Shown here piece after piece: positions 2,869 through 38,263 of a stretch of 38,263 bases of DNA. Position 1 is the stretch's first letter; each line of letters starts with the position of its first letter. Below the pieces are notes generated by a model. The model worked only from the letters and a program-made list of their open reading frames with translations. It was not told the DNA's origin and did no database searches. The position numbers and the translations under genes were made by a program. Source of the DNA: a virus; IMG/VR virus record IMGVR_UViG_3300045257_000142, positions 1-38,263 of that record. The stretch is one strand, 5' to 3'.

Positions 2869-2916
2869 TGAAACACTAAAACAAATGATGTACAATATTT
2901 GTTTTGGAGTTTTATT

Positions 2917-3531
2917 ATGTTGTGTGTTGTATGTTGTATTGATATTGGTGATACTCATAAATATAAAAAATATTGTTCTGTAATTTGTAGAAATAAAGCT
3001 GCTTATGCAAAAACTATATCTAATAGTAAGATTTGTAATTTTTGTAATGTGAGTTTTTTAGGGTTTATTAAGCAAAAATTTTGCAGTCATAAGTGTTCTT
3101 ATGACTCTCGTGCTGATGTTATGAATAAATATTATCAATCAAAAAGAAAATATCCAAAGATAGAAGGTTTAAATAGATGTCAGATATATAGAAAGTTTAA
3201 CCCAGCTAAAGGACGAGAAGAATTATCAAAAGATAATATGAAACGAGTTATAGTTATTCAAGCTCTCGGTGGCTGTTGTAAAACATGCGGATATACAGAT
3301 GATATTCGTGCTCTTCAGTTAGATCATATTAATGATGATGGATATGAAGATAGGCGAGGAAAGGGAAAAATTGGGAAAATATATAGATATTATGTTAACA
3401 AACTGGATGAGGCAAAAGATATTTTACAAGTCCTTTGTGCAAATTGCCATGCGATAAAAACAAGTATATCTAGAGAGATCTCAAAAAAGAAAGCGAAAGA
3501 ATATAAGGACAGAAAAAATGCCTCTAATTAA
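2917..3531 (+). CDS. HNH homing endonuclease with zinc ribbons
   Basis: This is a probable free-standing homing endonuclease of 204 aa. The N-terminus has paired CxxC and CxxxC zinc-binding motifs (about residues 3-24 and 40-60). The C-terminal HNH nuclease shows LQLDHINDDG (residues 133-142, with D136 and H137 of the first HNH strand) and QVLCANCHAIK (171-181). I chose ATG 2917 because GGAG at 2906-2909 sits seven bases upstream; an upstream TTG at 2899 stays in frame but has no ribosome site. It interrupts two tiny genes of the portal cluster, and its 3' end overlaps the next gene by 14 nt, as expected of a mobile insertion. Confidence 0.88.
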   Translation: MLCVVCCIDIGDTHKYKKYCSVICRNKAAYAKTISNSKICNFCNVSFLGFIKQKFCSHKCSYDSRADVMNKYYQSKRKYPKIEGLNRCQIYRKFNPAKGREELSKDNMKRVIVIQALGGCCKTCGYTDDIRALQLDHINDDGYEDRRGKGKIGKIYRYYVNKLDEAKDILQVLCANCHAIKTSISREISKKKAKEYKDRKNASN

Positions 3532-6132: not shown

Positions 6133-6879
6133 ATGTCGGTGAATACCCCAATCGTAAATGCTCGCGTTAAATACGTGAATGGATTAGAGATTGCTTATGC
6201 CACAACAACCACGTTTACGATGGCTGCTGGTGCTGCAAGCAATTCTACTAATATAGATGATATAGTTTTAAGTGCCCCTGTTACCAATACAATTACCTCT
6301 GTTGGTGTGAATGGTGTGGACATTGCAGCTGCTGTATTAAGCAGTTTTTATGCCGTGTATGTAATCGGTGATTCTACTGGCTACAAAGCAACCGCAAGCT
6401 TGTTATCTTTAAGTGCAACAGCCCCTTCTTTGCCTTTTGGATATGACATGTTTCGTCGTGTTGGTTATGTATTAACTGATGGTTCTGCTCTTTTAGTTAA
6501 GTTCTGGCAATATGGACATGCTAGTTCAAAAGATATGTGGTATGACACTGGTATTGCAACACCTGCAATTACTACATCAACAACCTATGTATCTCAGTCA
6601 TTAGCAGCAGGTATTCCTCCATCCTTAGTATGTGAGGCATATTTAAAAGTTGATTACACAGCAAATAGCGCTACTAATATTGCTACGTTTGCGCCATATG
6701 GATCAACTGCTTCAGTTGGCATGATTGTGTTTGGTTATGGTGTGGCAGCAGCTCAGCAAGGTATGGTAACAGTTCCAACAGCGCTTAACTCTACTGCTCC
6801 AAGTATTACCCATAAAGAAACATCAGCTAGTGATGCTCTTGTGATACTAGTAGCCGGTTATCAAGATAGTTTAGCGTAA
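6133..6879 (+). CDS. Hypothetical virion protein, possibly head decoration
   Basis: This 248-aa protein lies between coat and the gp4-like gene, with a clear ribosome site (AAAGGAGAT). It is low in charge and rich in Ala, Thr, Ser, Val and Gly, with alternating polar and hydrophobic runs typical of beta-sandwich structural proteins. I do not recognise a family. Its place in the head operon suggests a capsid decoration or head-fibre protein. P22 itself has no gene at this point, so this is an addition to the usual order. Confidence 0.6.
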   Translation: MSVNTPIVNARVKYVNGLEIAYATTTTFTMAAGAASNSTNIDDIVLSAPVTNTITSVGVNGVDIAAAVLSSFYAVYVIGDSTGYKATASLLSLSATAPSLPFGYDMFRRVGYVLTDGSALLVKFWQYGHASSKDMWYDTGIATPAITTSTTYVSQSLAAGIPPSLVCEAYLKVDYTANSATNIATFAPYGSTASVGMIVFGYGVAAAQQGMVTVPTALNSTAPSITHKETSASDALVILVAGYQDSLA

Positions 6880-6901
6880 TAAACTAAAGGAGAACCCCAA
6901 T

Positions 6902-7609
6902 ATGGCATATACAACCAATGAGCTCATAGCAGGTGCTTTTTATGCATCCGGCGTGGTTTCGCGCGAATTTGAGACGGTTAGTGGACAACAAATTGGGGAT
7001 GGCCTTAGTTGGCTAAATGATATATTGACTGAGAAAACAGTTGATGATGGGATGGTTCCATATGAATCAACCTATTCATTTACTGCGGTTCCAGGACAAG
7101 AAATATATTCCATACCAGATTTAATTTCGATTGATACCTTGGTTTTCTTTAAGCAGTCTGTACGTTTTAGTATGTCATATACAAAGCGGAATGCTTATTT
7201 TGGATCTAACCGTGTTGAAAGCATTAGAAGTTTGCCATACCAGTGGTATTTTGAGCGAAAGTTTGGTGGTGGCAATCTATATATATATTTTACGGCCGAT
7301 CAGAATTATCCGATGGAGCTTCATGGGACATTTAGGTTAGCTGAAGTTGCATTGAATCAAGATTTAAGTTTGACGATTGATAAGTTTTATACGACTTATC
7401 TGAGATATGCTTTAGCAGATAGAATTTGCTCAGAATACAATTATGTTACGCCTCCAAATGTGGTGAAACAACTTGGGAAATATGAAGGTTGGATAGATAA
7501 GAAATCTAAACTTATTGACCTTCAACTAGAAAAAGCTTCATCTCTTCAAGGAAGCAATGCTACCTATAGTTGGGCTTGGATCAACTTGGGTCGCGGATTC
7601 CTTCCTTAG
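6902..7609 (+). CDS. Head-to-tail adaptor, P22 gp4-like
   Basis: This 235-aa protein is predicted to form the first ring below the portal and close the packaged head. The opening TTNELIAGAFYASGVV...ISDGLxxLN-like pattern (here GDGLSWLNDILTEK), the central SFTAVPGQEIYSIPDLISID and the C-terminal FRLAEVALNQDLSL...YLRYALADRICSEYN match the layout of gp4-like tail accessory factors. P22 gp4 is 166 aa, so this one is longer. It sits in the expected place, immediately before the gp10-like gene. The ribosome site is AAAGGAGAA. Confidence 0.8.
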   Translation: MAYTTNELIAGAFYASGVVSREFETVSGQQIGDGLSWLNDILTEKTVDDGMVPYESTYSFTAVPGQEIYSIPDLISIDTLVFFKQSVRFSMSYTKRNAYFGSNRVESIRSLPYQWYFERKFGGGNLYIYFTADQNYPMELHGTFRLAEVALNQDLSLTIDKFYTTYLRYALADRICSEYNYVTPPNVVKQLGKYEGWIDKKSKLIDLQLEKASSLQGSNATYSWAWINLGRGFLP

Positions 7610-9241: not shown

Positions 9242-9271
9242 TATAATAACTACTTTAATAGGGGTAGTTAT
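9242..9271 (+). promoter_or_regulatory. Promoter-like box and start-codon-masking hairpin of the second HNH gene
   Basis: TATAAT (9242-9247) is a consensus -10 box without a good -35. ATAACTAC (9246-9253) pairs perfectly over 8 bp with GTAGTTAT (9264-9271). The pairing buries the first two bases of the ATG at 9270, and most of the GGGG ribosome site falls in the loop. In T4, homing endonuclease genes such as I-TevI are silenced by similar hairpins until a late promoter starts inside the stem; the same logic may apply here. Confidence 0.5.
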
Positions 9272-9884
9272 GAGAGAAATGCATAAAAGTTTGGAGAAAG
9301 AGTGCCTTCATTGCAAAGTAAAAATAAGGGTGTATGTATCAGATATTAAAAGGGGAGGAGGCAAATACTGTTCTCCTTCTTGTAGTGGCAAGCATTCTAT
9401 AGAAATTAGACGAAAAAAATTAGAAGGAAGCCCATCAGAAAGATTTTTCAATAATATTATAAAATCTGATGATGATAAAGGATGTTGGATTTGGGTTGGA
9501 CTTGCAAGCAAGCAAGGATACGGAAGAATGACAATAAAAAAGAAGCAAAAATTAGCACATAGATATTCTTGGGAATTTCATTTTGGGGAAATACCAGAAA
9601 AAATGTTTATATGTCATAAATGTGATAATCCACCTTGCGTTAATCCTGCTCATTTGTTTGTAGGAAACAGATCAGATAATGCAAAAGATATGGTTAGTAA
9701 AAATAGAAATAGAGATGATAGAGGCTCTAATCATCCAATGGCAAAATTAAATGAAGAAAAAGTTATTAAAATAAGAGAAAGAATAAATTCTGGAGAAGTT
9801 CAGAAAGATTTAGCGAAAGAATACAATGTTAGCCCTATGACAATAAGCATGATAAAAAGAAGAATTAATTGGAATAATATTTAA
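9270..9884 (+). CDS. HNH endonuclease (HNH_3 type) with C-terminal HTH
   Basis: This 204-aa protein has three parts. An N-terminal zinc ribbon (C12xxC15...C34xxxC38) comes first. An HNH_3-type nuclease follows, with GCWIWVG (71-77), AHRYSWEFHFG (96-106), CHKCDNPPCVNPAHLFVG (115-132) and NRSDNAKDM. A C-terminal helix-turn-helix (160-200, KLNEEKVIKIRERI...YNVSPMTISMIKR) is of the type that gives homing enzymes site specificity. It sits between the gp10-like gene and a small tail gene, and its stop overlaps the next start (TAATG). It is unrelated in sequence to the HNH protein at 2917. Confidence 0.9.
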   Translation: MREMHKSLEKECLHCKVKIRVYVSDIKRGGGKYCSPSCSGKHSIEIRRKKLEGSPSERFFNNIIKSDDDKGCWIWVGLASKQGYGRMTIKKKQKLAHRYSWEFHFGEIPEKMFICHKCDNPPCVNPAHLFVGNRSDNAKDMVSKNRNRDDRGSNHPMAKLNEEKVIKIRERINSGEVQKDLAKEYNVSPMTISMIKRRINWNNI

Positions 9885-17293: not shown

Positions 17294-18085
17294 ATGGCAA
17301 CTAATAATAATTTAAACTCAGCAACGGTTCCATTAACTCCCGCATTTGGGGGAACAGGCGTTGCCAATACAGGAACAATAACCGTTGGTGGAAATACGTC
17401 ATTTGTTGGGGCGCATACATTTGCAGGAACTATTACTGGCGATACAGCTGTAACATTTCCAACATCAGGAACGTTAGCAACAACAACAAGCGCATCTGGA
17501 ACTGTAAATAGTGGAACAACTAATCAGTTGGCTTATTATGCAAGTTCCACAAATGCTGTATCTGGTTTATCAACAACAGCTCGTTCAGTATTAACAACAG
17601 ATTCAGCTGGGGCGAATGCATGGATTGCATTAACAGATGGACAGATTGTAGTTGGAAGCAGTGCGGGAAGCCCTGCAGCTGCATCTTTATCAGCAGGAAC
17701 CGGAATTAGTATTACTCCAGGCTCAAATAGCATATCTATTGCAGCCACCGGAGCGGCAGGAATAACCTGGGCTAATATTTCTGGAACAACCCAAGCCGCA
17801 GCCGTCAATACTGGATTCGTAGTTGGAAATGCGAGTCAGACAACTATCACACTTCCGGCTACAGCAGCACTTGGTTCAACAGTTACGATTCAAGGTAAAG
17901 GAGCTGGTGGGTGGATTTTGGCAGCCAATACAGGTCAGACAATTCAGGTTGGTCAGACGGCATCAACTACAGCTGGATCAGTTACATCTGCAGCAGCCTT
18001 TGATTCAATACAGGTTGTGTGTATTACAGCCAACACAACATGGGCCACGATTAGTGTTCTAAGTAGTGGCGTAACCGTAGCATAA
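17294..18085 (+). CDS. Fibre protein, repeat module plus shared C-terminal domain
   Basis: This 263-aa protein is a mosaic. Residues 19-152 (from GGTGVANTGTITVGG) are a fibre-repeat module nearly identical in protein sequence to residues about 337-470 of the protein at 21714. Residues about 157-263 (WANISGTTQAAAVNTGF, TTITLPATAALGSTVTIQGKGAGGW) are the same domain as the C-terminus of the protein at 16485. It therefore joins parts of two neighbours and shows that modules are exchanged within the array. Confidence 0.68.
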   Translation: MATNNNLNSATVPLTPAFGGTGVANTGTITVGGNTSFVGAHTFAGTITGDTAVTFPTSGTLATTTSASGTVNSGTTNQLAYYASSTNAVSGLSTTARSVLTTDSAGANAWIALTDGQIVVGSSAGSPAAASLSAGTGISITPGSNSISIAATGAAGITWANISGTTQAAAVNTGFVVGNASQTTITLPATAALGSTVTIQGKGAGGWILAANTGQTIQVGQTASTTAGSVTSAAAFDSIQVVCITANTTWATISVLSSGVTVA

Positions 18086-18095
18086 AGGAATAAAT

Positions 18096-18764
18096 ATGGC
18101 CGTAACAACACAATTAAATACCGGAACGACTCCTTTAACTGTTGCAGAAGGAGGAAGTGGTGTGGCAACGCATACTACCGCATATGCACCTTTGGCAGCA
18201 GGCACAACAGCTACCGGAGCTACTCAAGTATGTTCTACCGGTCTTAGTACATCAGGATTCGTTTTAACATCTACCGGAGCAAGCAGCCTTCCTTCTTTTC
18301 AGGCTCCAACAGGGCCTACAGGCAGTCCAATATTGGTCAGCGTACCATTAACATTAGCTCAGTTTTTAGCTTTAAAGAATACGCCATTCCAGATTATAGC
18401 TGCACAAGGAGCGCATACTCTTATTGTGCCAATTAGTATTGTTGTTGAGCTTGTAATGGCTGGGGTCGCATTTTCTAATTTAGGGATAACAGGACTTCAA
18501 TATGGAAGTACAACTAACTTTGCTGGACAGCGTATAGCCGAGATTCCAGCTGCAAACATTCAAACTGTTACAGTAGATACAATATTAAATGTGCCAATTC
18601 AATATAGTGCCAGCACCTTATACCCAACAATGGTAGTTTATACGGGCTCTACATCTATAAATACAGCAGTATATATGTCTAGTACATCAACTACTCCTCT
18701 TGGTGGAACAGGTGCAACGGTTAATGTTAATGTAGTATATTCAGTTATAACAACAAGTGCATAA
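18096..18764 (+). CDS. Fibre protein with globular C-terminal domain
   Basis: This 222-aa protein has a GGSG repeat stub (residues 18-50) and the STSGFVLTSTGASSLPSFQ linker that also appears in the protein at 18778. From about residue 80 follows a globular domain (VPLTLAQFLALKNTPFQIIAAQGAHTL) related to the C-terminal domains at 18778 and 21714. In this shared domain a hydrophobic start is followed by Gly/Tyr-rich beta strands; it is probably the receptor-binding or trimerisation tip. Confidence 0.65.
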   Translation: MAVTTQLNTGTTPLTVAEGGSGVATHTTAYAPLAAGTTATGATQVCSTGLSTSGFVLTSTGASSLPSFQAPTGPTGSPILVSVPLTLAQFLALKNTPFQIIAAQGAHTLIVPISIVVELVMAGVAFSNLGITGLQYGSTTNFAGQRIAEIPAANIQTVTVDTILNVPIQYSASTLYPTMVVYTGSTSINTAVYMSSTSTTPLGGTGATVNVNVVYSVITTSA

Positions 18765-18777
18765 AAGGATTTAATAA

Positions 18778-20280
18778 ATGCCAGTTTTAAATTATCAAGT
18801 TAATGCTCCAGGGTATGGTGGAATAAATCCTAAGTTAGTTTACATTTTTACTAATGACCCAATTGCAGTTGTAACAACAACAAATTATATAGATTGGTTA
18901 GCAAATCCTAATGGAATATATCCTGGAGACGTTGCTTTAATTGTCACACAAGAAACACCAACATCAAATCTTGGTGTTGGATTCTATGAATTCGTAAGAG
19001 TTGGAACGACCAATCATTGGAATTTAATTCCTATAACTAATAGTCCAGCTTCCGTTAATTCAGTTACAGGAACACTTAACGAAATAATTGCCACACCAAC
19101 AATGGGTGATGTTGTAGTCTCGATCTATCCTAATCCTCAAATACCTGGAATTGCGTCTATTGGCTTACCTCATGGAACCACAGCTCAAAGAGCTGGGATA
19201 ATAGGAAGTATTAGATTTAATACAGATACGGGTCTTTTTGAAGGAACTCCCGATGGTACGACATGGGTTGCATTTGCATCCGGAAGTTCAGGTGTTAATA
19301 GTATAACCGGCACTATTAATCAAATTGTTGTTTCATCTCCAACTGGCAACGTCAATATATCAATTGATCCAGACCCAATACTTCCAGGAACAGCAGCAGT
19401 AACTCTTCCATCTGGAAATACAGGACAAAGAGGAAATATTGCGGGTTCTCTAAGATTTAACACTCAAACTAATGCTATTGAGTTAACAAATGATGGTACT
19501 AACTGGTATACGGTTCTTGATACAAATAATGGTGTATCAAGTGTAACAGGGACCGCAAACAGAATTACAGTAACTGGGACAACTAATGCCGTTGTAGATA
19601 TAGCCGCAACTTATGTAGGGCAGACAAGTATCACTACTTTAGGAACGGTTACAACAGGCACATGGCACGGAAGCACAATTACAGTTCCATTTGGGGGAAC
19701 AGGCGACACAAGTTTTACCGCTTTTGCTCCAATTTGTGGTGGCGTCACCAATACATCCGTATTAAAGTCGGCTGACACAGGTATCGCAACAGCAGGATTT
19801 GTTTTGACATCGACAGGATCTTCAAGTTTACCTACATGGCAAGTAGCACCAGGGAACGGAGCGTCTCAATACATAAGGATTCCATTGACTGGGAACCAGT
19901 TTATTGGAGTGGGCGGTCCAGTTATGCTGCTTCCAGCCCCGGGAGCTGGGCTTACATATATAGTTACAGCATGGGCTATTGAGGTTGCAGGTGGCTATTT
20001 TCAGGCTGGTATAGGAGGGTCATATCAGCAGATACAAACATTCTCAGGAACGGTCGATTCACGATTTGCATGTACTGGAGCAATTTCTCTTATTAATACG
20101 CAACCTTTATTGACTGGTATGTATCCTGTTAATGCTCAAACCATTACTGAAACTTCTGTTCCTTATTCGCCTATATTAGCTAATGCACCTTTATATTATG
20201 GTTGCACAGGAGCCCTAACAATTAATGGAGGAGCCTCAGCAGCAATTCATTTATATTACACAGTTGTAGCAGTTATATAA
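18778..20280 (+). CDS. Large fibre protein, shared head, shaft and tip
   Basis: This 500-aa protein has an N-terminal 85-aa head (MPVLNYQVNAPGYGGINPK) related to the heads at 20546 and 21714. It continues with SVTGTxNxI repeats, one shaft repeat ANRITVTGTTNAVVDIAATY-VGQTSITTLGTVTTGTWHG ending in GGTG, and a C-terminal tip related to those at 18096 and 21714. Shaft repeats of this SYVGQ-SITTLGTV-GGTG type are typical of trimeric phage fibres. Confidence 0.7.
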   Translation: MPVLNYQVNAPGYGGINPKLVYIFTNDPIAVVTTTNYIDWLANPNGIYPGDVALIVTQETPTSNLGVGFYEFVRVGTTNHWNLIPITNSPASVNSVTGTLNEIIATPTMGDVVVSIYPNPQIPGIASIGLPHGTTAQRAGIIGSIRFNTDTGLFEGTPDGTTWVAFASGSSGVNSITGTINQIVVSSPTGNVNISIDPDPILPGTAAVTLPSGNTGQRGNIAGSLRFNTQTNAIELTNDGTNWYTVLDTNNGVSSVTGTANRITVTGTTNAVVDIAATYVGQTSITTLGTVTTGTWHGSTITVPFGGTGDTSFTAFAPICGGVTNTSVLKSADTGIATAGFVLTSTGSSSLPTWQVAPGNGASQYIRIPLTGNQFIGVGGPVMLLPAPGAGLTYIVTAWAIEVAGGYFQAGIGGSYQQIQTFSGTVDSRFACTGAISLINTQPLLTGMYPVNAQTITETSVPYSPILANAPLYYGCTGALTINGGASAAIHLYYTVVAVI

Positions 20281-20284
20281 TATT

Positions 20285-20530
20285 ATGAAATTAACAAAAA
20301 TATTCATGGCTCCTATAAGTATAATTGTAATAGGATTTATAATATGTTTATGGGCGTTCATAGTGGTATATTCAAAAGTACTTAACAAAGATGAAACTAT
20401 AATTGAAAAAAAAATGGAAGAAGTTATAGAGAAGAATATAGAGAACGTTCTGAGTCTTCCTTCAGGTTCTTTAGAAGGGAAATTAGACTTCATGGTTCAA
20501 CCATTAGAACCTAAAGATGACAAAAATTAA
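20285..20530 (+). CDS. Small inner-membrane protein within the fibre array
   Basis: This 81-aa protein has one transmembrane segment (residues 9-30, PISIIVIGFIICLWAFIVVYS) and a charged helical tail (ETIIEKKMEEVIEKNIENVL) that may form a coiled coil, so the tail probably faces the periplasm or cytoplasm. It lies five bases after one fibre gene and 15 before the next and has no fibre features. It could be a spanin- or holin-like lysis component, or a membrane protein acting on superinfecting phage. No family is recognised. Confidence 0.6.
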   Translation: MKLTKIFMAPISIIVIGFIICLWAFIVVYSKVLNKDETIIEKKMEEVIEKNIENVLSLPSGSLEGKLDFMVQPLEPKDDKN

Positions 20531-20545
20531 TATAAGGAGATTCAA

Positions 20546-21703
20546 ATGACAATTTTAAGTTTCAACATAAACGAACCAGGGCAAGCAGGCGTTTTCCCAA
20601 GTATGATTAGAATTCAAACTAATAACACGCTGGCTCAAGTTTTAGTCACTGGATTCTTAGATGAAATGTTTTCAGAAAATGTGCCATTACAAAACGGAAT
20701 GATGGCTCTTGTTTCTACCAAACCATCTGTAAATTCTTCAGTTGTTAATACTAGTTGGCTAGAAGTTAAATTTGCATCTGGTCATTGGACATTAACTCCA
20801 ACTGCAGTAGCGCCAAGCTCAATAGCTCTTCCAACAATTGTAAATCATATGGCAGTTTTTACAGATACAGTCGGATCTTTAGGAGAAGATACATCTGTTG
20901 CAATTAATGGCGGGAATATTCAAGCAGGACTTAGTGGGACAGCTGGTTATGTTGCTTCATTCCCTGCAACCTTAGCAAAAGGTTCATTGAGATTAACGGC
21001 CGTTGCAAATACTGGCGATACATTAGTAACGTTATCAAATGCATTGCATGGACAGGCATCCGTATATTCTATTCCAGATAGTGGCGCCTCAACTGCTAAT
21101 TTTATTGTGTCAAAAACAACAGGGACACAATCAATAACTGTTGGAAGTTTGGCAGTAACAGCTGGTAACATTAGCGCTGGGTCTTCTGGTTCAGCAGGAA
21201 CTCTATCTTCATTTCCGACTACTGCATTAAAAGGATCTTTTAAAATTGCGGCAGTTGACAATACAGGTGATACATTAGTTACACTGTCAAATGTAGCACA
21301 TGGTCAAGCTTCAGTTTATAGCATTCCTGATGTAGGAAATGCATTAGGACGCGTTTTGGTTGGAGCGACCGCCACTCCATTTACAACAGGTCATTTATTG
21401 TCAGCATCTGGAACTGGTGGGGTTATAGCAGATTCAGGAATTGTTGCCGCAAATGTTCAATCATCAACCAACATTAAAGCAGTTACAACTGGTAATATTG
21501 GTGGCGCTGGAGCCGGACCTATAACTGTTACACAAGCAGCTTGTACATCTAGCAGCGTTATAATGTGTCAAGTTCAATCTTCTAGTAATCCATGTTATGT
21601 GATTACAGTTGTTCCAGGAACAGGAAGTTTTACAGTGACAACTAATACAGACCCTGGGGCTTCATTAATACTAAGTTACGTTTTATTTGTGGCTGCTCAA
21701 TAA
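20546..21703 (+). CDS. Fibre protein with internal duplicated repeats
   Basis: This 385-aa protein has a head domain (residues 1-88, starting TILSFNINEPGQAGVFPS) paralogous to the heads at 18778 and 21714. Two copies of an approximately 70-residue repeat follow; the first holds FPATLAKGSLRLTAVANTGD and the second FPTTALKGSFKIAAVDNTGD, each going on to TLVTLSNxxHGQASVYSIPD. The C-terminus (AACTSSSVIMCQVQSSSNPC) ends in a short beta domain with several cysteines. The repeat copies suggest recent internal duplication. Confidence 0.68.
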   Translation: MTILSFNINEPGQAGVFPSMIRIQTNNTLAQVLVTGFLDEMFSENVPLQNGMMALVSTKPSVNSSVVNTSWLEVKFASGHWTLTPTAVAPSSIALPTIVNHMAVFTDTVGSLGEDTSVAINGGNIQAGLSGTAGYVASFPATLAKGSLRLTAVANTGDTLVTLSNALHGQASVYSIPDSGASTANFIVSKTTGTQSITVGSLAVTAGNISAGSSGSAGTLSSFPTTALKGSFKIAAVDNTGDTLVTLSNVAHGQASVYSIPDVGNALGRVLVGATATPFTTGHLLSASGTGGVIADSGIVAANVQSSTNIKAVTTGNIGGAGAGPITVTQAACTSSSVIMCQVQSSSNPCYVITVVPGTGSFTVTTNTDPGASLILSYVLFVAAQ

Positions 21704-21713
21704 GGGGATTAAT

Positions 21714-23546
21714 ATGCCAATCATAAGCTCCAATTTTAACCAGATTGGGAATTCTGGGCAACAACCTGGAACATGTTTCATTGAAACAGATGATAGTTTA
21801 ACAACTATTCAAACTGCTGGATATTTGAATACACTAGAACGACAAGGATTACCATTAAGTGAAAACTTAATGGCTCTTGTAGGAATAAATAAAGGTGCAG
21901 CGAAATCTACTGTTTGGATGGCAATTCATTTTTCAAATGGAGATTGGAGTCTAGTACCTAGCGCTATAGAGCCTTCATTAAATGCTAAATATCTTGTTCA
22001 GCAACCTAATGCTACATTACCAAATGCACAGGCAATGTCGGCATTAGCCACTGGAATTGTAAAAAATACTACGACAACCGGTGTTCAATCAATAGCTGTT
22101 GCAAATGTTGATTATCAACCAGCGTTAAGCGGAGAATCATTAACAGCAGTTACTGTGGCAACGGATGATAAAATATTAATTCAAGATACAAGTGATTCTA
22201 ATAATTTAAAGACAGTAACTGCGCAAAGTGTTGCTGCTTTGGCTGGGGCCGTAACGAGTGTAACGGGAACAGCTAATAGAATCACATCATCAGGCGGCGC
22301 AACTCCTTCTATAGATATATCAGCTAGCTATGTTGGTCAGGGCTCAATAACTACTGTAGGCACTGTCAGCACGGGGGTATGGAATGGAACAGTTGTGGAT
22401 GTTCCGCACGGTGGTACAGGAGTAGCAACTTTAACTACGGCTAACGGTGTTCTTTGTGCTAACACGACAGCTACTGGTGCAGTTGTTACGGTTGCTCCAA
22501 GCTCTGACACAACTTTTGTTTTGACTTCTAATGGAACGAGTGCACCGCCAAGCTTTAAAGCAGCTGCAGGAGGAGGAGTAACAAGTGTTACAGGGACAAC
22601 CAATAGAGTGACATCTACCGGTGGATCAACTCCTGTAATTGATATATCAGCTAGTTATGTTGGACAAAGTAGCATTACCACACTTGGAACGGTAACATCA
22701 GGATTGATTCAACCTGGAGCTGGTGGAACAGGTGTTGCAAATACAGGAACTATAACAGTTGGTGGTAATACAGCGTTCTCTGGTGCTTTTACATTTACAG
22801 GAACTATAACAGGAAATACAGCCGTAACATTTCCTACATCAGGTACGTTGGCTACAACGGCAAGTGCATCTGGAACTGTAAATAGTGGGACTGCAAATCA
22901 GGTTGCATATTATGCAAGTACTACTAATGCCGTTTCAGGATTATCGACCACTGCGCGCGCTGCATTTACATCTAATTCAACGGGCGTTCCAACTTGGGTT
23001 GCTTTGACGGATGGGCAAGTTATTGTAGGTAGTACAGCTGGAAGCCCAGCAGCAGCTACTTTAACTGCGGGTACTGGAATAACAATAACTTCAGCTTCTA
23101 ATAGTATCACTGTTGCTTCGGCATCTGCTATCCAATCGGTTACATTTACACTTACTGCTGCAAATATTAAAGCCATGTTTGCAACACCTGTACAAGTTAT
23201 AGCTGCTCCTGGAGCTCATAAAATTATTGTTGTAACGGAAATTTTATGTGAGTTTGTGCGGGTAGCGCCATCATATACCGCAGGCGGATCATGGGGACTC
23301 CAGTATGGAAATTCTGCTCAGTTTGCTTCTCCTGGCGGTTATGTGTTGCTTTCTAGTATAGACCTAACCTCTGGATCAAATGATTTAGCCTTTGTATCAG
23401 CAAACCCAAATACGGGAGGTGTTAATGATACTGCAGATTATATTAATCAAGGCATCTTTGCTTCCAACCAAACTGCAGCTTATTTAACTGGAAATGGCAC
23501 CGTAACATTTACCTTATATTATTTAATAATGAACACAACTTCATAA
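21714..23546 (+). CDS. Largest mosaic fibre protein, shared head, three repeats and tip
   Basis: This 610-aa protein starts at ATG 21714, which follows AAGGGGATT; an in-frame start at 21687 would overlap the previous gene and is not supported. It has the head domain (1-85), two shaft repeats of the ANRxTSxGGxTPxIDISASYVGQ type (the first ending in GGTG), then the module shared with 17294 from residue about 337. From about residue 480 follows the tip domain (VTFTLTAANIKAMFATPVQVIAAPGAH) shared with 18096. It is the last fibre before the terminator. Confidence 0.7.
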   Translation: MPIISSNFNQIGNSGQQPGTCFIETDDSLTTIQTAGYLNTLERQGLPLSENLMALVGINKGAAKSTVWMAIHFSNGDWSLVPSAIEPSLNAKYLVQQPNATLPNAQAMSALATGIVKNTTTTGVQSIAVANVDYQPALSGESLTAVTVATDDKILIQDTSDSNNLKTVTAQSVAALAGAVTSVTGTANRITSSGGATPSIDISASYVGQGSITTVGTVSTGVWNGTVVDVPHGGTGVATLTTANGVLCANTTATGAVVTVAPSSDTTFVLTSNGTSAPPSFKAAAGGGVTSVTGTTNRVTSTGGSTPVIDISASYVGQSSITTLGTVTSGLIQPGAGGTGVANTGTITVGGNTAFSGAFTFTGTITGNTAVTFPTSGTLATTASASGTVNSGTANQVAYYASTTNAVSGLSTTARAAFTSNSTGVPTWVALTDGQVIVGSTAGSPAAATLTAGTGITITSASNSITVASASAIQSVTFTLTAANIKAMFATPVQVIAAPGAHKIIVVTEILCEFVRVAPSYTAGGSWGLQYGNSAQFASPGGYVLLSSIDLTSGSNDLAFVSANPNTGGVNDTADYINQGIFASNQTAAYLTGNGTVTFTLYYLIMNTTS

Positions 23547-28546: not shown

Positions 28547-28642
28547 AGGAACATAAACAATATAAATACGAACGAAGGACTTTACTCTTGTCTTTTTTGA
28601 TATTAGAGAAGGATCTTTTTCATTATCACAATTACCGACACA

Positions 28643-28737
28643 ATATTACGATAAACTATTTTTATTTAAAAGACAAATCATTAATTCAAGGATAAATTAA
28701 CAATTTGGTTTTTATTTTCAATAATCTATCGTAATAT
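28643..28737. repeat. Perfect 11-bp inverted repeat, 73-bp spacer
   Basis: ATATTACGATA (28643-28653) and TATCGTAATAT (28727-28737) are exact complements, separated by 73 bases of AT-rich sequence. The spacing suits looping by a bound dimer better than a hairpin. The site lies upstream of the replication genes. Confidence 0.55.
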
Positions 28738-28782
28738 ATACACCTAAAATGCAAATATAAAATCTGCATTTCAAAATTTTTC

Positions 28783-28815
28783 CCTTAAATAAAATTTCTG
28801 AGGTTTTATTTAAGG
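28783..28815. repeat. Perfect 12-bp hairpin
   Basis: CCTTAAATAAAA (28783-28794) pairs with TTTTATTTAAGG (28804-28815) over a 9-nt loop. A smaller hairpin AAATGCA/TGCATTT (28747-28753, 28765-28771) lies just before it. No T-run follows on either strand, so it is not a standard terminator. Confidence 0.55.
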
Positions 28816-28997
28816 CCTAAAAGTCCGTACCACAGGACAACCATATACAAATGGAAAGCATATCTTAATGTATCAGACAGTACAATGCAATAGTTTTAAT
28901 CAACTTTCTAGCTATTCACCTCAAAATAATCTAAATCATTTAACTTCAAAAAATTCTCACGGATCTGAATTCCATATATTCTGGCTTGATAGTGGCT

Positions 28998-29030
28998 AAT
29001 TAGAATCAATTTATCATTTAAATTCTAATT
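28998..29030. repeat. 9-bp inverted repeat before the first replication gene
   Basis: AATTAGAAT (28998-29006) and ATTCTAATT (29022-29030) flank a 15-nt AT-rich spacer, 22 bases before the ATG at 29052. It is a possible operator or autoregulatory site for the winged-helix proteins. Confidence 0.45.
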
Positions 29031-29051
29031 AACTAACTAATCGGAAAAAAT

Positions 29052-32492: not shown

Positions 32493-32813
32493 ATGGATTT
32501 AAGAAAAGGTTCAGAAGTTAAAGAAGGGAAAAGGCGCTGTATTCGTTGTAGAGGCCGAAAGAAGTTATATAAGACAAATGGTGGATGGTCTTTCGAAAAC
32601 TCGGGTGGAACATTAACGGACTGCATTTTATGCATGGGTACAGGGTTGATAGACCTTCATAAGGATGGGGTTGAACTTATTTGTGGTTCCGACCTAATTC
32701 CTATTTCTAAAGAAACGAGATTAAAATTGGAGAAAGAAGATGCCAAAGAATCCAAAAAACGAAGAAAGCCAGCCAAAGAAAAAGAAGTCTCCGCCTTCGA
32801 CAAAGAATACTGA
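32493..32813 (+). CDS. DnaJ-type zinc-finger protein
   Basis: This 106-aa protein has CIRCRGRKKLY (Cys16, Cys19) and CILCMGTG (Cys44, Cys47), a pair of CxxCxGxG-like knuckles as in the DnaJ zinc finger, in a small phage context. A long charged, Lys-rich tail follows. The last 74 nt overlap the small terminase gene. It may bind nucleic acid or a partner protein; similar short zinc proteins occur near phage packaging genes. Confidence 0.68.
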   Translation: MDLRKGSEVKEGKRRCIRCRGRKKLYKTNGGWSFENSGGTLTDCILCMGTGLIDLHKDGVELICGSDLIPISKETRLKLEKEDAKESKKRRKPAKEKEVSAFDKEY

Positions 32814-33381
32814 ACCAAAAAGAAAGAAAGTACACACAGAAGCCCAAGAAGCTTACTATACGCGTAAGAGCGAAGCCTGTAGGTTACTAAAAGCAGAGAT
32901 AGAGGCCTATTCAAAACCAAAAACAGGTAGACCGTCTATGTTTACAGAAGAACTAGCGGAATATATTTGCGACAGAATTGCTTCTAGTCCAAAGAGTGTA
33001 AAAACATTATGTGCAGAAGATGACCGTATGCCAGACCAATGTAGCATCAACCTTTGGTGCTGGAAATACCCAACCTTCTTCCTCCAATATCAGCTAGCTA
33101 AATCACAACAAGCGCACTGGATGGCTGATGATTGTGAGGAGATTGCGAAAGAAGTTGATTATATTACTGACCAACAAGGCACTCAAAGAGTTGATCCAGG
33201 TTTTATTGCGAGCAGAAGATTAATGGTCGACACAAAAAAATGGCATGCGTCTAAGCTTGCTCCCACTGTGTTCGGAGATAGAAAGGCTGTTGAAGCGCTA
33301 CAGGGTGAGAATGAGAGCATTAAGGCTGAGCTAATGGCTCTTAAGTTGCAACTAGCTGAAGTTAATAAGAAGGAATATTGA
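32740..33381 (+). CDS. Terminase small subunit
   Basis: This 213-aa protein has a basic N-terminus (1-30) and the HTH-containing GRPSMFTEELAEYICDRIASS (63-83). The pattern of a short HTH (SINLWCWKYPTFFLQYQLAKSQQA) and LMVDTKKWHASKLAPTVFGDR (161-181) is typical of the small terminases that recognise pac/cos and give DNA to TerL. A helical Glu/Lys tail ends in KKEY. GGAGAAAGA precedes ATG 32740. Unlike most phages, terL lies 3.75 kb downstream with a block of small genes between. Confidence 0.85.
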   Translation: MPKNPKNEESQPKKKKSPPSTKNTEPKRKKVHTEAQEAYYTRKSEACRLLKAEIEAYSKPKTGRPSMFTEELAEYICDRIASSPKSVKTLCAEDDRMPDQCSINLWCWKYPTFFLQYQLAKSQQAHWMADDCEEIAKEVDYITDQQGTQRVDPGFIASRRLMVDTKKWHASKLAPTVFGDRKAVEALQGENESIKAELMALKLQLAEVNKKEY

Positions 33382-33539
33382 TGGAATTTTTAAACCCAAT
33401 CCAGAAAGGATTTGCAGAAGCATTAAAAGAACTACAAAAACTATATCGCCAGATGGACGATGAAATTGCTGAGATAAAGTATGACAACAAACAACTTCAA
33501 GAAGAGGTAATTAATATAAAACGGAATATGTCTAAATGA
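33381..33539 (+). CDS. 52-aa coiled-coil protein
   Basis: This small helical frame (MEFLNPIQKGFAEALKELQK...) overlaps the small-terminase stop (TGATG) within the repeated AAGGAATATTGATG junction. It has strong heptads and high charge; a small oligomeric or adaptor role is likely. Function unknown. Confidence 0.62.
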   Translation: MEFLNPIQKGFAEALKELQKLYRQMDDEIAEIKYDNKQLQEEVINIKRNMSK

Positions 33540-33551
33540 TAAGGAATACTG

Positions 33552-33881
33552 ATGGGTAACGATGAAGCTTCCGAACCAGATGGAGAATTGCCATGGCGCC
33601 CTACTATTGAAGAGATAGAAGAGGCAATAGAAGAGTTTGACGTATTAGAACATTATGATCACGTTCCGGATGATGACTATGCGGAAATGTCTTATGGATA
33701 CTATAAGCGGATATTAAAGGTTTTCAAATGGTTCAAAGATGAGCACGATAAATATAGAGATTGCGCAATCAGTGCCTGGCGAAAAGAAGATATTCTTCTT
33801 GAAAGAATCAAATGGTTTGAAATAGAGAAAGAACAACTAGAAGAGCAGTTAGAAGAAATAAAAAGGAATATTGATGGTTAA
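33552..33881 (+). CDS. Acidic coiled-coil protein
   Basis: This 109-aa protein is rich in Glu and Asp (PTIEEIEEAIEEFDVLE), with a helical tail (LLERIKWFEIEKEQLEEQLEEIKRN). It is preceded by the AAGGAATACTGATG cassette at 33541-33554, which here is noncoding. It may form a coiled coil with its small neighbours. Confidence 0.6.
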   Translation: MGNDEASEPDGELPWRPTIEEIEEAIEEFDVLEHYDHVPDDDYAEMSYGYYKRILKVFKWFKDEHDKYRDCAISAWRKEDILLERIKWFEIEKEQLEEQLEEIKRNIDG

Positions 33882-34134
33882 CCCAAAATCAGAAAGAGAA
33901 GTCATCAGTGACTACTTCTATGATATAAGAGAAATTTGGAATGATATTGATACATTAGAACGCCAAGCGAGCCAGACATTAAATTTTCTAGGCGATATAA
34001 ATACAAAAAATAAAGAATATGATGGAACGTGGGAAATTCAACCAGATGCTATGGTTGGTCTTGCGCACAGGATTCTTATTAAAATGTCGGCTCTTGCTGA
34101 AAAATACTACAATGAAGAGATTTTTGAAGAATAA
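33874..34134 (+). CDS. 86-aa helical protein
   Basis: The start is ATG 33874, inside the third AAGGAATATTGATG cassette, overlapping the previous gene by 8 nt. It is predicted helical with mixed charge (SEREVISDYFYDIREIWNDI). A TTG start at 33871 would add one residue and is less likely. Function unknown. Confidence 0.6.
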   Translation: MVNPKSEREVISDYFYDIREIWNDIDTLERQASQTLNFLGDINTKNKEYDGTWEIQPDAMVGLAHRILIKMSALAEKYYNEEIFEE

Positions 34135-34146
34135 GAAGGAATATTG

Positions 34147-34308
34147 ATGACTGAAGATAATCTGGCTCAGGCCTTGGTTCATATTGGAAAAGCTTTAGAT
34201 AGGCTTGAAGAGAAATATGAAACTATAACAACTCTTAAATTACAGGTTGCATCATTGATGCAAGACATTAAAAACTTAGAAGAATATATTAAAACCCAGG
34301 AGTACTGA
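34147..34308 (+). CDS. 53-aa coiled-coil protein
   Basis: This short helical frame (MTEDNLAQALVHIGKALDRL...) has an ATG within the fourth junction cassette and a stop in the fifth, where it overlaps the sigma-like gene (TGATG). It resembles the 52-aa protein at 33381 in size and heptad layout; the two may be distant duplicates. Confidence 0.6.
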   Translation: MTEDNLAQALVHIGKALDRLEEKYETITTLKLQVASLMQDIKNLEEYIKTQEY

Positions 34309-34610
34309 TGTTATATGGGATAGAAAGATTTTTTGATGTTTTTAACAAACAGGCGATTTATCTTAATAGTATACCAACTGACAATCAAATGTCATTCATA
34401 TTACCTATTACAACAGACGAAATTAGACTTTTAAAATTAAGATTCAATCAGGATGGTACTTATAAAGATTCTCTTCGATCTATAGGAAAAGAATATGGAG
34501 TTACCGGAGAAAGAATAAGGCAGAGAATAGAAAAAGCATTAAGAAAACTACGACAACCATCCAGAAGTGAAGATTTAATAGGGTTTTTAAATAAAGAAAA
34601 GGAGTGTTGA
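34308..34610 (+). CDS. Sigma-70 region 4-like protein
   Basis: This 100-aa protein is nearly a stand-alone sigma region 4. Residues 36-94 (DEIRLLKLRFNQDG, then LRSIGKEYGVTGERIRQ, EKALRKLRQPSRSEDLIGFL) match the end of RpoD-type sigma factors closely, including the RKLRxPSRSE signature. In the recognition helix, the equivalents of E. coli sigma-70 E585, R588 and Q589 (here E68, R71, Q72) are kept and R584 is Gly67. There is no region 2 or 3, so it cannot melt promoters alone; it may replace or bridge region 4 at -35 or bind the beta-flap. It is coupled to the next gene. Confidence 0.88.
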   Translation: MLYGIERFFDVFNKQAIYLNSIPTDNQMSFILPITTDEIRLLKLRFNQDGTYKDSLRSIGKEYGVTGERIRQRIEKALRKLRQPSRSEDLIGFLNKEKEC

Positions 34611-35374
34611 TGTCTAATGAAATGAGCCTATTAAGCATTGTCGCAGAGGCAGAAGAGCAACTTTATAAGAACATGGGGTCTCAACCTTCCATAGACGATT
34701 TGGCTAGATATATATGGACATCCAAGAGAGAGCTGCAGATATTTCTTATGAGATATAAAGATGAGGCCCCTCTAAAGGATATAGGCTTGGCATTTGATAT
34801 AGGTCCAGACAGAGTTACTCAATTGCTGCATAAATTTTCACATAACTTATTGCAATTTTGTTGCAGAATAAAAAATGATGTTGTGGAAAAAAAATATATT
34901 CCTTTGGGTGGGATAGACGGCCCATTAGATACAAAAGAACATCTCCTGGAGAGAAAAATAAAAAGTTTCACCGAAAGAGTTTCAAAGCTTAGGGCTTTGT
35001 TAGTAAAGATGGAAGAAAAAAACTACAAACTGCATGTGGAATTATCAGATTCAACAGAAGAATTTAATGAGCTTAGCTCTGAATTGATTACCATAAAGAA
35101 TTGTTTTTCTCGTTTGTTTGAAAAAAAAGAAGATGCGAATGTTTCTATTTTTGATAAAGAAATAGATGAATGCGAATTCACAACCAGAGTAAAAAATGGT
35201 TTGCGTGGTGAACAAGTAGGAACAGTAGGTCAGTTAGTTAAAGTAAAAGAGAAGGATCTATTTAAGATTCCCGGCATAGGAAAGAAGTATGTAAGGCAAA
35301 TAAAAGCATTTTTAAATAAAAATGATCTTAAATTAGGAATGGATATGGAAGATGGAAGAGCAGATGAAGAATGA
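34610..35374 (+). CDS. Sigma-like / RNA polymerase alpha-CTD-like fusion protein
   Basis: This 254-aa protein has three parts. The first (about 5-85: EAEEQLYKNMGSQPSIDDLARYIW, then LKDIGLAFDIGPDRVTQLL) is sigma region 3/4-like. The second (105-170) is a coiled coil. The third (181-245, FDKEIDECEFTTRVKNGLRG, LVKVKEKDLFKIPGIGKKYV, IKAFLNKNDLKLGM) follows E. coli alpha-CTD over its whole length. R193, N196, G224 and K226 line up with the DNA-contact residues R265, N268, G296 and K298. No other phage protein with this fusion is known to me. The start is ATG 34610 in the last junction cassette. Confidence 0.85.
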   Translation: MSNEMSLLSIVAEAEEQLYKNMGSQPSIDDLARYIWTSKRELQIFLMRYKDEAPLKDIGLAFDIGPDRVTQLLHKFSHNLLQFCCRIKNDVVEKKYIPLGGIDGPLDTKEHLLERKIKSFTERVSKLRALLVKMEEKNYKLHVELSDSTEEFNELSSELITIKNCFSRLFEKKEDANVSIFDKEIDECEFTTRVKNGLRGEQVGTVGQLVKVKEKDLFKIPGIGKKYVRQIKAFLNKNDLKLGMDMEDGRADEE

Positions 35375-35816
35375 GATTAAGAAGAAGCATTTTCATATAG
35401 ATTCTATGAAATTTAAACACATAGAATGGGACGAAGAAGACTGGGGTATTAGTTTAAAGATATCTGAAAAAGAAGACGTTAATAATATAACAATTCCTAT
35501 ATTGTCAGAGCTGAATTATGCTATGTCAAGATTAGAGGATCTTTATAAATTTCTTGGGGAAGTCATAGATAGAAAAACCGGGAAATCTAATGGGGCGCAA
35601 TTAAAACATTTTAGATGGTTAATTGAATCTATGTCGGACACAATTGATAAAGCTTACCAAATCCCCAGCAAACAAGCCCTTATCAATACAATAAAAGAAT
35701 GCCTTGACACCCTGGACTTGGTAGACGAAGAAAAAGAAAGATGGCAAAAGAGAGCATTTGCACTAGAAGATAAATATGAACCAGATGAAGATTATGAAGA
35801 GGATGAAGATGACTAA
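35352..35816 (+). CDS. 154-aa acidic protein of the packaging/transcription operon
   Basis: This protein has a basic N-terminus (MKNEIKKKHFHIDSMKFKHIEWDEEDW) and a very acidic tail (EPDEDYEEDEDD). It overlaps the fusion gene by 23 nt. ATG 35352 gives 154 aa; ATG 35364 gives 150 aa and has GGAAGAG just upstream, so that start is possible as well. The acidic tail could contact a basic surface of RNA polymerase or DNA-binding proteins; function unknown. Confidence 0.6.
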   Translation: MEEQMKNEIKKKHFHIDSMKFKHIEWDEEDWGISLKISEKEDVNNITIPILSELNYAMSRLEDLYKFLGEVIDRKTGKSNGAQLKHFRWLIESMSDTIDKAYQIPSKQALINTIKECLDTLDLVDEEKERWQKRAFALEDKYEPDEDYEEDEDD

Positions 35817-36195
35817 GGAAGAAAAGATTATAGCCCTACACCAAGAGCTAAATGAAGAATATGCAAAACTATCAGAAACATCCCTAAGTGATATTAGTGA
35901 ATATGATGATGAAGACTGGAAGACATTGCGCATAGAGTGCGGAAGTGAAAAGGATATTATGCCAGCCTTTAAATGGGCCAACAGGACAATTACTGACCAT
36001 TTCTCCGATAAGTTCACTAAGCCAGGAGTTTACGATATCCTTTTCTGTGTTAGCTATCGTGGAGAGTTTGATAACTCAGAAGAAGCTAATCAAAATAGAG
36101 CTAAGATAAAGGCTGCTCAGGAACTGATTAGCAACAAAGCCAAAGTTGAAATGGCAAAGATTGAGGCTGAATATTCAGAAGTGGAGCAACACTAA
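35809..36195 (+). CDS. 128-aa helical protein
   Basis: The start is ATG 35809, with AGAGG six bases before it; an upstream ATG at 35776 lies deep in the previous gene. The middle (DIMPAFKWANRTITDHFSDK) is mixed, and the C-terminal half is a charged helix (AKIKAAQELISNKAKVEMAK). It overlaps the genes on both sides. No family recognised. Confidence 0.6.
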   Translation: MTKEEKIIALHQELNEEYAKLSETSLSDISEYDDEDWKTLRIECGSEKDIMPAFKWANRTITDHFSDKFTKPGVYDILFCVSYRGEFDNSEEANQNRAKIKAAQELISNKAKVEMAKIEAEYSEVEQH

Positions 36196-36743: not shown

Positions 36744-37136
36744 ATGGTAGCCTTAAAAGTACCAAAAATAAATCCTTTCCATATGAATCCAATTGAACAT
36801 CTTGGATTTCCTAAAGATATATTGGAATTCTTGAAGAAGGCTAATATATTGCTTGTTGGAGACTTGCTTATACATAGAAAGCGGGAAGTACTTAGAATTC
36901 CAGGGATAGCAAAAACTAGATTTAAAAGAATTGAAATGATTCTAAGTGCGCACAAGTTAATGTTGTCAGAATCATATGAGAATGGCGCAGGAAGATTTGG
37001 GTACATACATCCAGAATATCATACGTGGGATCATTCTGTAACTATAGTATGGCCGCCAGATATTCCAGGACGGAAGAAAACTTTCAAGGAGATATATGTG
37101 GATTGTGTTGTAGAGGGGATAGTTAATTATGTATGA
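36744..37136 (+). CDS. Second alpha-CTD-like protein, DNA-contact residues lost
   Basis: This 130-aa protein has residues 15-74 (NPIEHLGFPKDILEFLKKAN, LLVGDLLIHRKREVLRIPGI, FKRIEMILSAHKLML) following the RNA polymerase alpha-CTD pattern. The places of E. coli R265, N268, G296 and K298 are Asp, Glu, Ala and Thr, so normal UP-element binding is unlikely. A unique C-terminal part (75-130, Trp/Pro/His-rich) follows. It may bind partner proteins, or compete with the host domain. The stop overlaps the terL start (ATGA). Confidence 0.78.
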   Translation: MVALKVPKINPFHMNPIEHLGFPKDILEFLKKANILLVGDLLIHRKREVLRIPGIAKTRFKRIEMILSAHKLMLSESYENGAGRFGYIHPEYHTWDHSVTIVWPPDIPGRKKTFKEIYVDCVVEGIVNYV

Positions 37137-38263
37137 AGGTTGATATAGAACGAGAAACCTTAGTTGCAGAGCTTCAGGGAAGTCTACTAGAGTTCTGTAA
37201 AGTATTTTACCCTCTCCTCACTGGACGAGATTTTATTATATCTGTACCTATTGGGAGAGAACCACATGCGGTCACGATATCACGGGCTCTTACGAGAGCT
37301 GCCAGGCTTCAAATACCTTCGCAGAGACTTATTATCAACGTCCCACCCGGACATGGTAAGTCAACCTTCCTATGTATGTGGGTGGCTTGGACTCTTTCTA
37401 AGTATCCTGACTCTCGTTATCTTTATATCTCATATTCTAAATCATTGGCCGCCAAGCATACTGAGACTATTAAACGTATTATTGGCCTTCGTCATTACAA
37501 GTATCTATTCGATGTATCTATTCGATGGGATAGTAAGGCGAAGGAATTCTTCCAGACTACTCACGGGGGTTCTATTGCTGCTTTTGGTTCAGCTGGTGCT
37601 ATCGTGGGACAGGATGGTGGCTTGCCTGGCTTAGACCGATTCTCTGGGGCCGTAATTATGGATGATAGTCATAAGATAGACGAGGCTCATTCAAATACAA
37701 TTCGTGAAGGTGTTATTGAGAACTATCGTGAAACAATCCAGCAGCGTGCTCGCGGCGTTAATGTACCCTACATTTATATTGGTCAGCGTGTACATGAGGC
37801 TGACTTAGCCGCGTACCTTATTGATGGTAAGGATGGATACGAATGGGAGAAGGTTATATTACAAAGCATTGACTCACTTGGTAATGCATTATATCCAGAA
37901 GCTTTTCCATTAGAATCATTGCTCATCAAACAAGACAAAGACCCCTACGTTTTCGCAAGCCAGTTTCAACAGAATCCCATACCTGCCGGAGGTGGATTAT
38001 TTAAACCAGATTGGTTCATTACCTTAGATGAAGAACCAGAGATGTTAATTACATTTATTACATGTGACACAGCCGAGACCGATAAAAATTGGAACGATTC
38101 TACGGTGTTCTCTTTTTGGGGAGTTTACCAGATAACTAATTTTGGAAAAGTATCAGGAGAACTTGGTCTTCATTGGCTCGACACGCTTGAAATCCGAGTT
38201 GAACCAAAGGACTTAAAAGATTCCTTTATAGATTTTTACACTGAGTGCACACGACACAGGATT
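37133..38263 (+). CDS. terL: Terminase large subunit, N-terminal part (runs on into 2-559)
   Basis: These 377 codons open at the right edge continue at base 128 of the window. Walker A VPPGHGKST (70-78), Walker B AVIMDD (173-178) and the IYIGQRV coupling segment (214-220) form the ATPase. CDTAET (311-316, D312) opens the RNase H-like nuclease. GAGGGG lies upstream and the start overlaps the previous stop (ATGA). It is of the P22/Sf6-like headful or related type, but the packaging mode cannot be settled from sequence alone. Joined, the protein is 520 aa. Confidence 0.95.
   Translation, partial: MKVDIERETLVAELQGSLLEFCKVFYPLLTGRDFIISVPIGREPHAVTISRALTRAARLQIPSQRLIINVPPGHGKSTFLCMWVAWTLSKYPDSRYLYISYSKSLAAKHTETIKRIIGLRHYKYLFDVSIRWDSKAKEFFQTTHGGSIAAFGSAGAIVGQDGGLPGLDRFSGAVIMDDSHKIDEAHSNTIREGVIENYRETIQQRARGVNVPYIYIGQRVHEADLAAYLIDGKDGYEWEKVILQSIDSLGNALYPEAFPLESLLIKQDKDPYVFASQFQQNPIPAGGGLFKPDWFITLDEEPEMLITFITCDTAETDKNWNDSTVFSFWGVYQITNFGKVSGELGLHWLDTLEIRVEPKDLKDSFIDFYTECTRHRI
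38137..38263. repeat. 127-bp terminal direct repeat (right copy)
   Basis: Identical to bases 1-127 and inside terL; see the left copy. Removing one copy gives a 38,136-bp circle. Confidence 0.95.

Follow-up and report, generated by a model that had tools for sequence, protein, structure and literature searches.

The phage genome analysed here (the window, 38,263 nt) encodes, in two overlapping genes, a stand-alone copy of region 4 of a bacterial sigma factor (sigma4) and a fusion protein in which a sigma4-like domain is joined through a coiled coil to the C-terminal domain of the RNA polymerase alpha subunit (alpha-CTD). The two domains recur together in relatives of this phage and in phages of the human gut. 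We propose that the products of the two genes act in trans as a module for promoter recognition, built from sigma4 and alpha-CTD copies of host origin, that recruits or re-aims the host polymerase; we regard the chances of this proposal as evenly balanced.

Genome organization

An exact terminal repeat of 127 nt (1-127 and 38137-38263) points to an assembly that is circular and apparently complete, with 38,136 bp, and the reading frame of the terminase large subunit (TerL) spans the circular join. The genome also encodes a P22-like portal, a small terminase subunit (TerS) of the Sf6 type, RecT, YqaJ, and head and connector proteins. The sigma4/alpha-CTD genes lie within a rightward gene run that extends from TerS to TerL (Table 1). 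Small genes make up this variable TerS-TerL interval. Four of them, closely packed, probably belong to the same operon as the sigma4 gene. A 20-nt cassette of stop codon, ribosome-binding site and start codon, AATAAGAAGGAATATTGATG (repeat family D6), is found at four successive gene junctions (33364, 33535, 33857 and 34130), as if the small genes had been inserted or duplicated by means of a common boundary.

Table 1. Coordinates of the sigma4 and alpha-CTD genes, their domains and the genes that border them.
Feature	Position	Strand	Evidence	Remarks
Terminase small subunit (Sf6 type)	32740..33381	+	PF20901 1.3e-22; phrog_1482 8.6e-27	Left border of the module interval
Four small genes, closely packed	33378..34308	+		No assigned function; between TerS and the sigma4 gene
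Stand-alone sigma region 4, 100 aa	34308..34610	+	PF04545 39.9 bits (cut-off 24.1); RpoD chains in the PDB 7e-12	Nearest to the primary sigma factor RpoD
Fusion protein, 254 aa	34610..35374	+		sigma4-like N-domain (residues ~5-95), heptad coiled coil (109-174), alpha-CTD (178-245)
Sigma region 3/4-like HTH domain (sigma4')	34622..34894	+	PF04545 sub-threshold; FliA/WhiG; pLDDT ~96	
Coiled coil, about nine heptads	34934..35131	+	Single helix 109-174; 15 of 19 a/d positions hydrophobic	
alpha-CTD	35141..35344	+	PF03118 E=3e-12; VIA Z 13.5 to 3n4m_C, 13.3 to 3n97_C	
Protein with degenerate alpha-CTD, 130 aa	36744..37136	+	PF03118 21.6 bits, below cut-off	
Terminase large subunit	37133..38263, on to 559 across the join	+	Reading frame, 127-nt repeat, relatives	Right border

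Promoter-like sites are not enriched (60 found compared to 55.6 expected, and 67 compared to 64.9), so that no promoter set can be assigned to the module. A survey of repeats in the window revealed no obvious operator family, just the ribosome-binding-site cassette. An imperfect inverted repeat with 29-nt arms (28643-28737), located inside a 0.5-kb intergenic gap (28547-29051), is a possible operator or origin. Elsewhere in the genome, two HNH endonuclease genes (2899-3531 and 9270-9884) are inserted among the structural genes, and the repetitive genes of 17347-23020, which their position marks as tail-fibre-like, have in common a 300-nt direct repeat (76%) as well as shorter ones, suggesting internal recombination.

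Structure of the fusion protein

The fusion gene starts at an ATG preceded by AGGAG (34600-34604) and ends with a stop codon at 35372-35374. The TGA stop codon of the upstream sigma4 gene (34608-34610) overlaps this ATG within TGATG, and the two genes are translationally coupled. The three-part architecture given in a preliminary description of this DNA (a sigma-like region, a coil and an alpha-CTD) is borne out by Pfam and NCBIfam profiles, the AlphaFold model and heptad analysis. A single-sequence scan of IMG/VR returned no close homologues of the 254-aa protein. One viral structure entry, A0A8S5MGL5 (257 aa, named 'DNA directed RNA polymerase subunit'), matches the model over 123-158 columns with a poor TM and may be a related fusion.

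The C-terminus is a true RNA polymerase alpha-CTD, and chance resemblance is excluded. It scores 46.5 bits against PF03118 (RNA_pol_A_CTD), compared to a cut-off of 23.8, and the strong matches of the protein to PDB sequences by phmmer are all RpoA chains (best 2.3e-10). Residues 178-245 are modelled by AlphaFold at a pLDDT of ~95 and adopt the alpha-CTD fold, with Z values of 13.3-13.9 to alpha-CTD chains (1.5-2.6 Å over 72-76 residues). Among the matches listed in a PDB fold search with the full fusion model, all are alpha-CTD, since this single domain takes up the whole listing; the structure matches include 3n97, which contains alpha-CTD and sigma4 on UP/-35 DNA.

Residues of the alpha-CTD were numbered by alignment to RpoA of E. 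coli MG1655. The overall identity is ~36%, and the DNA-binding residues are retained, with equivalents of R265, N268, G296, K297 and K298 all present. The positions cited in the preliminary description (F181, D182, R193, N196, G224, K226 and L242-G243-M244) are exact, and R193, N196, G224 and K226 align with R265, N268, G296 and K298 of E. coli as had been claimed. Asp258 and Glu261, which belong to the '261' surface, are also retained. This surface of alpha-CTD faces sigma4. Substitutions include S299 to Tyr, C269 to Gly and E302 to Gln.

The N-terminal domain, termed sigma4' here, had been likened to sigma region 3/4 over its first 85 residues. This likeness is right, although it is weak by sequence: the domain scores 20.9 bits against PF04545, under the cut-off of 24.1 (E=2.6e-4), and residues 10-76 match positions 148-215 of the NCBIfam FliA/WhiG profile (E=2.8e-4), covering region 4 and the last part of region 3. 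Confident helices are predicted for residues 11-80 (pLDDT ~96). A chance origin of the sigma-like match is unlikely. The preliminary description was to fall if the C-terminus proved to be a generic helix-hairpin-helix (HhH) and the N-terminus lacked a sigma-type HTH; this check did not refute it. The C-terminus proved to be specifically an alpha-CTD, and both the profiles and several weak viral matches of the N-terminus in the whole-protein structure search are sigma factors.

In E. coli sigma70 numbering, sigma4' has P584, D585, T588, H596 and L599, and thus lacks the equivalents of R584, R588, R596 and R599. The domain therefore looks worn as a -35 reader. Sigma4' and alpha-CTD are connected by a 66-residue helix in the model, in which the hydrophobicity peaks at a period of 3.5 (p=0.026), consistent with the heptad pattern of Table 1.

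The stand-alone sigma4 and a second alpha-CTD

The protein encoded immediately upstream scores well above the PF04545 cut-off and matches RpoD chains of the PDB (Table 1). It retains E585, R586, R588, Q589, K593, R596, R599 and R603 in sigma70 numbering, with R584 replaced by Gly. It is unambiguously a stand-alone region 4 and carries most of the -35-reading residues. Docking of the fusion protein itself at the place of region 4, as first suggested, is not supported, given the arginines that sigma4' lacks; its stand-alone neighbour is the better candidate for this role.

Both the stand-alone sigma4 gene and a degenerate alpha-CTD encoded farther downstream (36744-37136) had been missed in the preliminary description. 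The latter protein has D265, E268, A296 and T298, so that its DNA determinants are lost. The end of its gene overlaps the start of TerL, and a copy with 85% identity is found directly before TerL in a related phage (L010, 7269-7661). The link of this gene to the sigma4/alpha-CTD module is uncertain.

Relatives in the podophage-like clade

Scans with the portal and TerL identified ~90 related contigs. Wherever sigma4 was found in this clade (the window, L010, L012, L013, L035, L037, L039 and L045), it is located between TerS and TerL. In L013, a single 259-aa protein consists of a sigma4 that is 68% identical to the stand-alone sigma4 of the window, followed by the same coil and an alpha-CTD. 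Shuffle tests gave a z of 69 for this N-domain against the stand-alone sigma4, and z values of 32 and 22 for the coil and the alpha-CTD against those of the window fusion. Similarity between the L013 N-domain and sigma4' was not detectable by the same test (z 0.35). These values indicate that one coil/alpha-CTD body has been combined with distinct sigma4 domains. Sigma4' is instead closest to sigma4 of L035 (z 11), followed by that of L037 (z 8). A scan with the A2 alignment returned the L013 contig again and nothing further.

At 584, 585, 586, 588 and 589, the fused sigma4 of L013 has S, G, C, S and G, so that its recognition helix is lost as well; both fused copies of sigma4 therefore look like poor -35 readers. 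The alpha-CTD of L013 has a threonine at the position of R265. In L012, a sigma4, an alpha-CTD and a second sigma4 are encoded by three consecutive genes, and the DNA determinants of the alpha-CTD are lost.

Sigma4 is present without an alpha-CTD fusion in L010, L035, L037, L039 and L045, and none of 50 further relatives contains an alpha-CTD above the cut-off. Divergent alpha-CTD-like domains were found behind a coil in L102 (5324-5806, minus strand) and behind a cysteine-rich, zinc-ribbon-like stretch in L052 (716-1054). Neither sigma4 nor alpha-CTD genes were found in L033 and L034, whose TerL is 91% identical. Thus, being absent from close relatives, the module is an accessory and fast-changing part of the variable interval. 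A small protein encoded at 35776-36195 of the window also has relatives in these intervals: in L035, a sigma4 domain continues in frame into a homologue of it (6785-7543), and the TerS-TerL interval of L012 (5893-8473) contains more than one copy of its family.

Gut phages and wider distribution

The human-gut phages MT835636 (L003/L006) and MT837876 (L004/L007-L009) encode proteins of 303-332 aa with the order HTH_17, sigma4, coil and alpha-CTD, in which HTH_17, sigma4 and alpha-CTD all exceed their Pfam cut-offs. The additional N-domain is HTH_17/excisionase-like. In L003 the fusion gene precedes TerS and TerL by ~4.3 kb and has the same orientation; in L008 it is instead near tyrosine-recombinase-like genes. 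A scan of genome contigs with the alignment of the gut-phage family gave one match only, of 55 residues, on an Acholeplasmataceae contig, which is probably the RpoA of that organism. A sample of 149 genomes from the phylum of this organism, scanned without a positive control, gave nothing at 1e-16.

Sigma region 2 (PF04542) and the N-terminal domain of the alpha subunit (alpha-NTD, PF01000) were both absent from the window and from seven relatives; the control genomes were positive for each. The proteins are therefore not a whole sigma factor or alpha subunit and, if they act in transcription, must work with the host enzyme. Phages thus repeatedly pair the two domains with which the host polymerase reads promoter DNA upstream of -10, without the parts for tight core binding or DNA melting.

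Proposed function

In the proposed mechanism, the coil would dimerise the fusion protein and so place two alpha-CTDs on the minor groove of AT-rich (UP-like) DNA. The worn sigma4' domain would act as a protein-binding surface, and the stand-alone sigma4, provided through coupled translation, would form a complex with the fusion and contribute -35 reading and/or contact with the beta-flap. The acidic 261 face of alpha-CTD would touch sigma4, as at normal promoters. The pair, bound to RNA polymerase, would recruit or re-aim the host enzyme to chosen phage promoters, presumably for activation rather than repression, with host sigma region 2 still opening the -10 box. The most likely targets would be the promoters of the adjoining packaging and structural genes.

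The proposal draws on the true alpha-CTD with its DNA determinants and its match to 3n97, the strong sigma4 whose gene overlaps that of the fusion, the recurrent pairing of the two, the constant placement of sigma4 between TerS and TerL in the clade, and the absence of sigma region 2 and alpha-NTD. It is weakened by a gene position that would equally suit packaging, the sub-threshold score and lost key residues of sigma4', the accessory distribution, the lack of promoter enrichment, the loss of DNA determinants in the alpha-CTDs of L012 and of the 36744 protein, and the threonine at R265 in L013. The late-gene switch of the preliminary description was deduced from gene position and is weakened by the two phages of near-identical TerL that have neither gene; that such close relatives do without the module speaks against a switch that is essential. 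In a more specific form, the pair would be a detached 'upstream half' of the holoenzyme (sigma4 and a dimeric alpha-CTD, with neither alpha-NTD nor sigma region 2) that docks in trans and resets how upstream promoter DNA is read. We put this forward tentatively, as possible rather than probable. If true, promoters would be re-programmed by domain mimicry, with neither an anti-sigma factor nor a complete sigma factor involved.

The retention of both the DNA-binding (265) and the sigma4-facing (D258, E261) residues in an alpha-CTD that has no alpha-NTD for polymerase assembly would also suit a decoy for host takeover. Here, the dimeric alpha-CTD would occupy UP elements and the surfaces of host activators or sigma4, and the sigma4 copies the beta-flap, weakening strong host promoters such as those of rRNA instead of activating those of the phage. 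Phage attack on alpha-CTD has precedents: T4 Alt modifies its R265 (PMC2988021), and G1 Gp67 blocks its contact with UP (described in PMC11598898). However, the gene shares its operon with the packaging genes, apart from the leftward operon of the recombination genes, and a decoy would not need an adjoining sigma4 with most -35 residues intact. We consider a decoy unlikely.

Also unlikely is a classical repressor or activator, in which HTH and HhH would be solely DNA binders without specific polymerase contacts. The recurrence of two polymerase-derived domains together in several arrangements would be unexpected for a generic HTH/HhH pairing, even though the gut relatives carry an HTH_17/excisionase-like N-domain, the sigma4-like HTH is common as a DNA-binding fold and sigma4' is degenerate.

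As a packaging accessory, the HhH/HTH proteins would help terminase to choose or bend DNA, a role that would fit genes that are all located between TerS and TerL, one of which (36744) overlaps the TerL start. This function is improbable, since close relatives with near-identical TerL dispense with the module, the interval consists of variable small genes, and the stand-alone sigma4 is plainly RpoD-like. Finally, decaying or neutral cargo without selected function, to which the accessory distribution and the residues lost in several copies could point, is highly improbable given the intact frames, good ribosome-binding sites, overlapping starts, DNA-binding residues kept in the fusion alpha-CTD despite its low overall identity, and a coil conserved with L013.

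Comparison with known systems

Single-domain alpha-CTD and sigma4 proteins of phages are already known, and their combination is apparently undescribed. A full-text search of the literature outside subscription papers found no description of a phage sigma4 joined with alpha-CTD, an absence that is not proof, and other databases may contain annotated examples. BFVD lists sigma4-only phage proteins and, separately, phage proteins named 'RNA polymerase, alpha subunit, C-terminal' (A0A6J5QDR9, A0A6J5L490, A0A2P1JY10 and others); the latter are 111-240 aa long, with listed alignments that are mostly the length of an alpha-CTD and no sigma4 named. That the combination recurs both in gut phages and in the podophage-like clade suggests a general strategy, overlooked because annotation labels its parts one by one as 'alpha subunit' or 'sigma factor'.

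The C-terminus of the fusion corresponds to the CTD of the bacterial alpha subunit in sequence, fold and main DNA-contact residues. Unlike that subunit, the fusion is phage-encoded, lacks alpha-NTD and has its alpha-CTD linked by a coil to a preceding sigma4-like domain. The stand-alone sigma4 is a region-4-only protein, like the 'minimal' sigma factors with a single HTH that have been reported from jumbo phages (PMC7824862). In contrast to these, it adjoins an alpha-CTD gene, is fused with alpha-CTD in L013 and is not from a jumbo phage.

Small regulators encoded beside packaging genes are also represented by the late regulators RinA and Ltr of staphylococcal phages (PMC13123087). These are ~130 aa, have no reported similarity to known factors and no described alpha-CTD, and their genes are upstream of TerS, directly upstream of their own promoter.

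Established phage tactics include binding, modifying or replacing sigma and modifying alpha-CTD. T4 AsiA, MotA and Alt (PMC2988021) act at the corner of the host polymerase formed by sigma4, the beta-flap and alpha-CTD. The T4 factors bind or modify the host domains, whereas the phage described here supplies copies of them. A module that copies just the two upstream promoter-reading domains would be a minimal, portable device for re-targeting bacterial RNA polymerase, and would allow the coupling of sigma4 and alpha-CTD to be tested directly, apart from the holoenzyme. We class it among phage factors that redirect the host polymerase, which it would do through combined copies of sigma4 and alpha-CTD.
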